DNA of 64,000 bases from an uncultured Fretibacterium sp. (GTDB lineage: Bacteria > Synergistota > Synergistia > Synergistales > Aminobacteriaceae), in contig CAMGZM010000003.1 in the NCBI GenBank assembly GCA_946183145.1, positions 62,001-126,000 of the forward strand, given 5' to 3'. The notes beneath the pieces are model-generated. The model was not told the DNA's origin, did not search any database, and was given only the letters and a program-made list of their open reading frames with translations. This document shows, piece by piece, positions 42,481-64,000 of this stretch. The stretch's first letter is position 1. Every line of letters starts with the position of its first letter. The position numbers and the translations under genes are program-made.

Positions 42481-42809
42481 TTTTCCGTGCAAATACAGTA
42501 TAATACAGTCAATTTTCCATAAAGAATGAAGGAGCTGCATATAGCTTCTGAAAAGTAATAATGCATAGCCGAACAGCCTGGCACAGGACAAAAGGAGGAT
42601 TATCTGCTACCAAAACCGGGACTGTTGGCAGAATAAGCATTTATCCGGGGAAACCTGGCTACCGCGGGCTGACGCGGGAAGTAAAAGCCTCTGGACTGCC
42701 GTAAAATCTCTAGTAGGCTCGCCGAACGAGGGCAGGAAATGCCTTAGCGATGAGGAAAGAACGAGGAAAATTCCAATCACTATATTATTCAGGTAGCAGA
42801 TATAATGAT
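42481..42809 (+). ncRNA. Structured leader of the oxaloacetate-decarboxylase-like gene
   Basis: The 329 bases between the deacetylase and oadA are not empty. A TATAAT at 42499-42504 would give a leader of about 300 bases. It folds into several compact hairpins: TCTGC...CCAA with TTGGCAGA, CCGGG-GAAA-CCTGG, CCGCG-CGCGG, CTCG-CGAG and GGCA-TGCC. A 47-codon frame (42561-42704) runs through it. I can match it to no riboswitch I know; a regulatory RNA or the 3' end of a TnpB-type element are the alternatives. Start of the gene at 42810 has only weak ribosome site AGGTAG. Confidence 0.45.
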
Positions 42810-44207
42810 ATGGCAGCAGAAAAGAGAGTAAGGATAACTGAAACCGGCCTGCGTGATGCTCATCAGTCATTAATCGCAACAAGAATGCGTACTGCTGATA
42901 TGCTCCCTGTTCTTGAGTACATGGACGCGGCGGGCTATTGGGCGTTAGAGATGTGGGGCGGAGCAACTTTCGACTCGGCGATGAGATTCCTTGACGAAGA
43001 TCCATGGGAGAGACTCAGGCTCATCCGCGCACGTGTCAAGAACGCAAAGTTACAGATGTTGTTGCGCGGTCAGAATCTCGTAGGCTATCGTCATTACGCA
43101 GATGATGTTGTTCGTGAGTTCGTGAAGAAAGCTGTCGGAAACGGTATAGATATTATCCGTTGCTTTGACGCATTGAATGACCTCCGTAATGTTGAAGTCG
43201 CCGCTGACCAAGTGAAGAAGGAAGGCGCGCACTTACAGCTTTGCATGAGCTACACGCTTTCACCCGTTCACACGCTCGAATCATTTGCGGGAATGGCCAA
43301 ACGTATGCAGGAAATGGGCGCGGACTCAATCGCGATTAAAGACATGGCCGGGCTTATCGGGCCGATGGACTGCGCTAAACTCGTTCACGCTATCAAGGCA
43401 AAAGTCGATATACCGATAGAGCTTCACAGCCATTACACGACAGGACTCGCGAGCATGGCATATCTTGCGGGAATCGAAGCGGGCGCGGAAATCGTAGACA
43501 CAGCAATATCACCGTTCGCATTAGGGACAAGCCAGCCCCCTACAGAATCACTTGTTGCGGCTCTTGCAGGCTCAGAATACGACACAGGAATCGAAATCGA
43601 GAAGCTGTTACCGATAACGAATCACTTCAAGAAGTTGCGCGAGAAGTACAAAGACTTGCTGCCGGAAATCGCCGGAGTCGACATCAACATTTTGCGTTAC
43701 CAGATCCCCGGCGGAATGTACTCGAACATGGTCAACCAGTTACGCGAAATGAACGCGCTCGACAAACTTGAAGCAGTGCTGAATGAAGTACCCGTTGTGC
43801 GCAAGGCTATGGGCTATCCTCCGCTTGTTACGCCTTCTTCACAGATGGTAGGAACTCAGGCAACAGTAAACGTTTTGCGCGGAAGATGGAAGAGTTTCCC
43901 GAAAGAAATCAAGCAGTATTTCTTAGGGTATTACGGTCAGCCCCCCGCGCCGATGGATCCGGAAGTCCAAAAGATGGCAATCGGCGATGAAGAGCCTATA
44001 ACATGCAGGCCAGGCGAGAAGATTCCGCCCGAAATGGAGCAGGCACGAAAGGACGCACAGCCGTGGATGACAGAGCCTGAAGACGCATTGACGTGGATAA
44101 TGTTCCCGCAGGTCGCAAAAGATTTCCTCCCGAAGAAGTACGCAAAAGTTCATCTCCGCGACACAGGTCTACAGGCACAGGCAGCACCGGAGGCTTACCC
44201 GGCGTAA
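42810..44207 (+). CDS. oadA: Pyruvate carboxylase subunit B / oxaloacetate decarboxylase alpha subunit
   Basis: A 465-residue carboxyltransferase. It has the DRE-TIM-barrel with LRDAHQSL, LRGQNLVGYRHYADD and ELHSHYTTGL (metal ligands His-x-His), and the PYC_OADA domain with PGGMYSNMVNQL. It transfers carbon dioxide between oxaloacetate and biotin. The usual C-terminal biotinyl domain with an MKM sequence is missing: the protein ends at EAYPA. So it needs a separate biotin carrier, and the Oad beta and gamma subunits (a sodium pump) are not in the window. It is translationally close to phoH (TAATG). The leader is structured. A Met start at 42810 is preferred to one 20 codons upstream. Confidence 0.9.
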   Translation: MAAEKRVRITETGLRDAHQSLIATRMRTADMLPVLEYMDAAGYWALEMWGGATFDSAMRFLDEDPWERLRLIRARVKNAKLQMLLRGQNLVGYRHYADDVVREFVKKAVGNGIDIIRCFDALNDLRNVEVAADQVKKEGAHLQLCMSYTLSPVHTLESFAGMAKRMQEMGADSIAIKDMAGLIGPMDCAKLVHAIKAKVDIPIELHSHYTTGLASMAYLAGIEAGAEIVDTAISPFALGTSQPPTESLVAALAGSEYDTGIEIEKLLPITNHFKKLREKYKDLLPEIAGVDINILRYQIPGGMYSNMVNQLREMNALDKLEAVLNEVPVVRKAMGYPPLVTPSSQMVGTQATVNVLRGRWKSFPKEIKQYFLGYYGQPPAPMDPEVQKMAIGDEEPITCRPGEKIPPEMEQARKDAQPWMTEPEDALTWIMFPQVAKDFLPKKYAKVHLRDTGLQAQAAPEAYPA

Positions 44208-63497: not shown

Positions 63498-63671
63498 ATG
63501 AAATATCCGAGTAGAATGCAAACAAAATATAAAAATAAATACCTATGGGACGTAGGAAATAACGCCTTTGGAGAGAATGTACAGCGCACGCAGGCGTGTA
63601 AGACTCTGGCAGAATATCGCGGAGCGGTCTCGATGAATTAGGAAGCCGCCGAATCCGTGAGGGGCGGTAGT
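63498..63671 (+). mobile_element. TnpB/omega-RNA-like remnant between cinA and recA
   Basis: A 47-codon frame (63498-63641) that starts MKYPSRMQTKYKNKYLW and ends NAFGENVQRTQACKTLAEYRGAVSMN; it looks like the C-terminal tail of a TnpB protein, where the omega-RNA overlaps the gene. Then GAAGCCGCC and GGCGGTAGTTCATC form the right-end hairpin of IS605/IS1341 elements (GAAGCC...GGTAGTTCA). No transposase or active TnpB part is left. The guide portion would be the sequence beyond 63671, the end of cinA. The left boundary is not visible. About 340 bases (63326-63671) without a normal gene are explained by this. Confidence 0.6.
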
Positions 63672-64000
63672 TCATCTGCGTATTTCCTTCCACAATTCCG
63701 CAAGCGCAAAACGTACTGCCCTCGTTCTTACTTCCTCACGTTTTCCCGGCAAATTTTTCATGGCCGAATGAGTCCCATTAACGCCCGCAACGCCAAACCA
63801 GACAGTTCCGACAGGTTTCGACTCGCTTCCTCCGTCAGGCCCGGCAATTCCCGTAATGCTCACCGCGTAATCAGCTCCGTAAATCTTCATCGCGCCTTCT
63901 GCCATTTCACACGCACATTCAGAACTCACTGCCCCGAATTTTTCCAGCGTATCAAGTTTCACGCCCAAAATTTTGTACTTCGACTCGTTGCTGTATGTTA
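63672..64000 (-). CDS. cinA: CinA-family protein (C-terminal part)
   Basis: The C-terminal 109 residues of CinA, running off the right edge. TYSNESKYKILGV, GAVSSECACEMAEGAMKIYGADYAVSITGIAGPDGGSESKPVGTVWFG is the nicotinamide-nucleotide amidohydrolase (PncC) domain. The enzyme recycles NMN, and cinA often stands before recA. The reading frame is open to the last base of the window. Confidence 0.93.
   Translation of the reverse strand, partial: TYSNESKYKILGVKLDTLEKFGAVSSECACEMAEGAMKIYGADYAVSITGIAGPDGGSESKPVGTVWFGVAGVNGTHSAMKNLPGKREEVRTRAVRFALAELWKEIRR

Follow-up and report, generated by a model that had tools for sequence, protein, structure and literature searches.

The leader of oadA in this uncultured Fretibacterium sp. 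is interrupted by a 265-nt element that is an RNA-only (tnpB-less) member of the RAGATH-18-type TnpB element family. Within the 64,000-nucleotide stretch of DNA that was analysed (the window), the element occupies positions 42535–42799 of the forward strand, which also carries all other window features described below, and it is one copy of a dispersed family. A second conclusion, graded apart from this identity, concerns translation: we consider it probable that this guide-RNA element, lodged within a ribosome-binding site, carries a spare Shine–Dalgarno (SD) sequence that rescues translation of the host gene.

The initial annotation had described a structured leader at 42481–42809, a range that does contain the feature, although its remainder is native oadA sequence. 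Positions 42481–42534 form the native leader with its own SD (AAGGAG, 42529–42534), the element begins immediately 3′ of this SD, and a native spacer (42800–42809) separates its right end from the oadA ATG at 42810. As a result, the native SD now lies stranded, 275 nt away from the AUG. The oadA gene itself (42810–44207) is intact and encodes a carboxylase/decarboxylase alpha subunit of 465 amino acids, with its best NCBIfam matches in the oadA/pyruvate carboxylase subunit B group. Alignment of homologous oadA leaders, which the initial annotation had suggested as a check, reveals an empty site in 22 congeners, composed of a conserved TATAAT, A(A)GGAG, roughly 9 nt and ATG, and these empty sites define the native SD and spacer. 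They also bear on the TATAAT that had been taken as a sign of a regulatory RNA. This sequence is indeed present at 42499–42504, upstream of the insertion, but it is most likely the −10 box of the native oadA promoter, as both its position and its sequence are kept before the empty sites.

Another locus in the same genome (L006) carries the filled arrangement, in which AAGGAG is followed by the element and then by CGATTAAT, beside a duplicated stretch that reads AAGGAGCGATTAAT. Because this locus holds both a filled and an empty version, both ends of the element are fixed to the base, without target duplication. The duplication at L006 (approximately 1700–2090) involves the junction between the 3′ end of priA and the next gene, which is repeated around the element copy such that empty and filled targets lie side by side. 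Separately, the left end of the window copy can pair with the stranded native SD (42530–42549, AGGAGCU with AGCUUCU), and AGCTTCT or AGCTCC is also present at the left end of several other copies. Such pairing may silence the old SD, or may be a trace of target recognition.

The leader matches dispersed copies both in its own genome and in many congeners. The conserved core AAGSCTCYGGACTGYC identifies seven copies in the same genome, six of which are RNA-only and one of which (L007, C9) carries tnpB. Across the genus, 68 copies were retained after the neighbouring DNA was read, each with a right end that reads TTTTTACGTAGCAG or nearly so, and tnpB adjoins L007 and about 20 genus copies, with the window copy lacking it. 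The genomes compared are mostly metagenome assemblies, and most of the named relatives are Synergistaceae assemblies from the ruminant gut. When the entire order was searched, the RNA-only block proved to be essentially confined to this genus, where it forms two subfamilies: family A (32 copies aligned) and family B (eight copies). A tnpB-bearing element in another genus of the family (L026, 1501–1640) has the right end TTTTAGTAGCAG and stops 8 nt before an ATG, so that placement of this kind may extend to members of this TnpB family outside the genus.

RAGATH-18 RNAs have been reported to be the guide-RNA cores of IS607 TnpBs (Ren et al. 2024, PMC11061315). In that study, the TAM was 5′-AGGAG in 18 of 22 strains, the loop of a 5′ flanking hairpin paired with the 3′ end of the scaffold to form PK2, and 64% of the RNAs adjoined tnpB, implying that copies without an adjacent tnpB exist. 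When scored with the RF03064 covariance model (gathering cut-off of 44.9 bits), the tnpB-bearing sister on C9 reaches 54 bits and a copy on C8 reaches 55.5 bits, with other copies at 18.6–42.7 bits. In contrast, the window copy gives no match to RF03064 even at an E value of 10, nor does an Rfam scan of the window, and it is too diverged to score against this model. The search against RNA family models proposed in the initial annotation thus gives scores above the cut-off for these two sister copies and none for the window copy itself. The window copy exhibits the covarying PK2 arrangement (helix A together with 42604–42611 paired to 42792–42799), and the AAGGAG at its left flank contains the published TAM (AGGAG, 42530–42534). 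Of 40 RNA-only copies, 26 have an exact AGGAG upstream of the spare SD at a distance of approximately 53–76 nt, compared with 8 of 40 in a control stretch. By analogy with the published guide position and length (PMC11061315), the native spacer plus the start of oadA (42800–42819) would constitute a 20-nt reRNA guide.

The protein encoded at L007 passes the general TnpB model and scores 276 bits against the IS200 and 186 bits against the IS607 TnpB model, both below cut-off. A serine TnpA of the IS607 type is absent from this genome and present in some congeners; one Y1 TnpA occurs here. The genome contains about 13 TnpB-like loci, several of which (on C24, C2, C10 and C1) are immediately followed by weak RAGATH-18-like signals, and the guide-RNA family may therefore be larger than the part that the Rfam model describes.

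An omega-RNA-like relic had been offered initially as a rival explanation, and this proposal was essentially right, given that homologous copies match RAGATH-18 and one has an intact tnpB. However, ‘relic’ undersells an element that shows conservation of both an SD-like block and its pairing partner. The same proposal linked the leader to an element at 63498, a link that is only generic: the sequence there looks like a TnpB right end of a different type, and blastn finds no relation between the two. That element (63498–63690, +) has a weak RAGATH-18-like signal of 22.5 bits, below cut-off, at 63565–63644, as well as a right-end-like tail (GAAGCCGCC...GGGGCGGTAGTTCATC), and resembles the remnant of a separate TnpB-type right end.

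The single-sequence free energy of the leader is unremarkable (z = −1.44, with 11 of 100 shuffles folding equally well), and thus the case for structure rests on comparison. A 49-pair model that includes the pseudoknot leaves 94.4% of cells paired in the 32 family A copies, compared with 33–48% when the model is slid along the alignment. Changes on both sides of a pair occur at 21 pairs versus 11.6 in shuffles, a value reached in 0 of 500. Both hairpins named in the initial annotation are present, and covariation backs them. The first (helix D, CCGGG-GAAA-CCTGG, 42645–42658) is paired in 99.4% of cells with double changes at four of its five pairs, and the second (helix E, CCGCG...CGCGG, 42662–42677) is paired in 97.5% of cells with three such pairs. 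Helix E is also the site of the last tnpB codons and the stop in tnpB-bearing copies. The 47-codon frame that had been noted across the leader lies beyond this stop and is not conserved between copies, and it was rejected both as a tnpB remnant and as a leader peptide.

Helix A corresponds to the 5′ flanking hairpin of the guide RNA. Its 5′ strand (CAGCCTGG, 42574–42581) pairs with CCGGGACTG (42616–42624) around a bulged A, with the inner helix paired in 95% of cells and the outer in 72%, and with some double changes. The RAGATH-18-like core (AAGCCTCTGGACTGCC...GAGGGCAG, 42685–42735) comprises helices F and G and is the region in which sister copies, but not the window copy, match RF03064. Helix I (CCTTA...TGAGG, 42742–42755) carries double changes at all four modelled pairs. 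PK2 joins CTGCTACC (42604–42611) to GGTAGCAG (42792–42799), the last bases of the element and the right end of all copies, and three of its pairs show compensatory changes. Copies with double changes in PK2 include that of the window (CTGCTACC with GGTAGCAG), and the covariation is understated because MAFFT places one base wrongly in two copies (L119 and L141). Family B has the same layout with a different helix A, and its PK2 pairs are almost invariant in the eight-copy alignment and hence carry no covariation information.

The loop of the 5′ hairpin holds the sequence AAGGAGG (42592–42598), which we call the spare SD. Among the 32 family A copies, conservation is at least 87% at every one of its seven positions, whereas the loop columns immediately upstream are free to vary. 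All RNA-only copies of both subfamilies have this sequence or a near match 5–6 nt ahead of the PK2 strand (CTGCTAC), and tnpB-bearing copies lack it. The variants AGGGAGG, AAGGGGG and GAGGAGG still pair with the anti-SD by wobble, with the exceptions being ATGGAGG (L037) and AAGGAGT in a decayed copy (L022). The CTGCTAC strand pairs with the last bases of the element, GTAGCAG, an interaction that is supported by covariation and is homologous to PK2 of the reRNA. All seven of these pairs form in 37 of 40 RNA-only copies. Two of the three copies with a broken PK2 (L022 and L129) have no proper gene start, and the gene after the third (L134) still has a GAGGA of its own between the insertion and its start. 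This association between PK2 breakage and the absence of need by a gene gives a Fisher p value of 0.002, in a test that is post hoc and on a small sample. Furthermore, a copy before uppS (L323) has lost the core motif and yet keeps AAGGAGG and a compensated PK2 (CTGCTGCG/CGCAGCAG). Judged by anatomy and covariation alone, PK2 is a helix between an SD and an AUG of the sort described for phage T4 genes 38 and 25, where such a helix cuts the effective spacing from 22 to 5 nt and from 27 to 11 nt, respectively (PMC3014915).

Approximately 90% of copies directly precede a start codon. Specifically, 52 of 67 copies have a start codon within 25 nt of the right end whose frame stays open through all available downstream DNA, and shorter frames begin near the right end of most of the others. 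The distance from the right end to the start codon has a mode of 8–11 nt in the 52 copies. Genes downstream include those for uS11, L19, YidC, UppS and a PurH-like enzyme, and those after tnpB-bearing copies include the genes for MurC and GatB. By comparison, a gene start follows no more than 15% of the AGGAG sites in the window. Insertions elsewhere are therefore probably removed by selection and those before start codons tolerated.

A related layout occurs in native leaders of the genus. The block GGAGG-NNN-AATCTGCTG also heads the cheB and rpsL leaders, and a reversed-pattern control yields zero matches. In 29 of 30 rpsL leaders (L267–L296), an SD is followed by 2–5 nt, a stem of 7–12 bp, 5–7 nt and GTG. 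These stems covary (CTACTG/CAGTAG and CTCCTG/CAGGAG) or are replaced by another stem at the same place (TGCAAAAG/CTTTTGCA). Most species also have a covarying stem before cheB (L237–L266), although about ten have a plain SD 5–13 nt from the start, and because some species lack it, the cheB hairpin came or went during evolution. The general native pattern is SD-NNNAAT-CTGCTG...CAGCAG-N5..9-start, with examples in the same genome at G000:C2:266815 and C5:112462, and four leaders of this type have no Rfam match. Given these SD–stem–start arrangements, ribosomes of this genus appear to initiate across a stem, as in T4 genes 38 and 25. The native stems may descend from decayed elements, or the element may have borrowed the block.

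The insertion site, the copies and their boundaries, the fold, the conserved spare SD and the position at start codons are observed; we infer a role of the spare SD in driving translation, use of the RNA by TnpB in trans, and the mode of movement of the element. According to the explanation we favour, the element is inserted exactly between the SD (AAGGAG, which contains the TAM) and the oadA start codon, and the 3′ end of the scaffold abuts the start-codon region, which would serve as its guide. The native SD is thereby stranded, and the element supplies a spare AAGGAGG in its 5′ hairpin loop. Formation of PK2 would then set this spare SD about 15 unpaired nucleotides plus one helix from the AUG, a ribosome could initiate across the folded element, and the interrupted gene, even an essential one, would survive. 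Host promoters would transcribe the element as part of the mRNA, and TnpB in trans may use the resulting RNA.

The main difficulty for this bridged initiation is posed by the tnpB-bearing copies that precede murC and gatB without a spare SD, which may mean that another route suffices. Those copies could be of recent origin, have low expression or reach translation in some other way. In addition, the effective spacing of 13–17 nt plus a helix is longer than usual, and PK2 has a known role in guide RNAs that does not need a translational explanation. An alternative that draws on the same points, and that we regard as rather unlikely, is that the RNA is a plain non-autonomous TnpB-type element whose guide RNA either functions or is in decay. 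If so, downstream translation would be SD-independent or weak, and AAGGAGG would be kept for a reason related to the guide RNA or to transposition. PK2 and the 5′ hairpin are indeed known guide-RNA features, and tnpB-bearing copies that precede important genes do without a spare SD. However, this reading fits poorly with the absence of AAGGAGG from tnpB-bearing copies of the same family, the retained anti-SD pairing of most SD variants, the persistence of SD and PK2 beyond the core at uppS, and the shared layout of native leaders.

Precise removal of the element from the RNA, as in IStrons, would rejoin AAGGAG to the native spacer and AUG, and would be an ideal rescue for exact insertion between an SD and a start codon. 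For some IS607-type IStrons, insertion follows a GG or AG site, and one of them has CAG at its end (PMC4227781). Nevertheless, splicing is very improbable here, as neither the window nor six copy loci match a group I or other Rfam intron, and only about 55 nt precede tnpB in the full-length copy. Equally improbable is a mobile promoter that drives the downstream gene, even though TTGACA and TAATCT are spaced by 17 nt in most family A copies. In family B, TTGACA is mostly missing although AAGGAGG is retained, the TTGACA is a strand of helix A (for example, TTGGCA facing TGCC in L002), and the window copy has CTGGCA...TATCTG. Moreover, the transcript would begin after strands that are conserved as RNA pairs, and a promoter alone would not solve the missing SD. 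Translation from an in-frame ATG at 42750, which would add a 20-amino-acid extension to the oadA product, was rejected as a general solution because the spacer length, and hence the frame, varies between copies. The cation- or metabolite-sensing riboswitch of oadA proposed in the initial annotation, for which the place before oadA and the stable fold had spoken, is refuted as a conserved device and scarcely credible in any form, as this RNA recurs in front of dozens of unrelated genes and none of the 22 other oadA leaders that could be read in the genus contains it.

Earlier work has described the guide RNA, its TAM and PK2, and in the openly accessible literature searched we found no description of RNA-only copies at SDs that carry a spare SD. 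If the bridged explanation is true, replacement of a ribosome-binding site would be another route to transposon harmlessness besides intergenic insertion and intron splicing, and it would give a biological reason for the use of AGGAG as the TAM by a TnpB lineage. OMEGA guide RNAs would also be linked to translation, and guide-RNA exaptation would gain a case that can be tested directly. Judging from the rpsL and cheB leaders, ribosomes of this genus may routinely initiate across a helix, a point relevant to gene-start prediction and to rules for SD spacing. We advance more tentatively, and hold to be doubtful, the wider idea that RNA-only elements are translation-transparent transposons that target SDs and supply a replacement through the guide-RNA pseudoknot, wherein TnpB binding could also switch the gene. 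In this view, elements at the end stage of decay left remnants that turned into bridged native ribosome-binding sites, with rpsL and cheB as examples in this genus.

HEARO (IscB-associated) RNAs offer another case of an OMEGA guide RNA with mobile RNA-only copies, although the nuclease, the target motif and the RNA differ from those described here, and we know of no SD delivery by such RNAs. Features common to the element and to RAGATH-18 reRNA and IS607 TnpB systems are the core motif, seen in sister copies, an AGGAG that flanks the left end, PK2 and a predicted guide beyond the right end. The element differs in that copies are mostly without tnpB, carry an additional conserved AAGGAGG and a PK2 of 7–9 bp, and lie between an SD and a start codon; a term search of PMC11061315 gives no mention of ribosomes or Shine–Dalgarno sequences. 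IStrons, which combine a group I intron with IS200/IS605 or IS607 (PMC4227781), are likewise mobile elements made tolerable to the interrupted transcript, in one case with similar AG/CAG ends, but no intron is present here and the rescue is proposed to act at translation initiation. In its proposed mode of translation, the element resembles T4 genes 38 and 25, in which a helix bridges SD and AUG to shorten their effective spacing; the phage uses small native hairpins, whereas the bridge proposed here is a mobile, pseudoknotted guide RNA of 265 nt.
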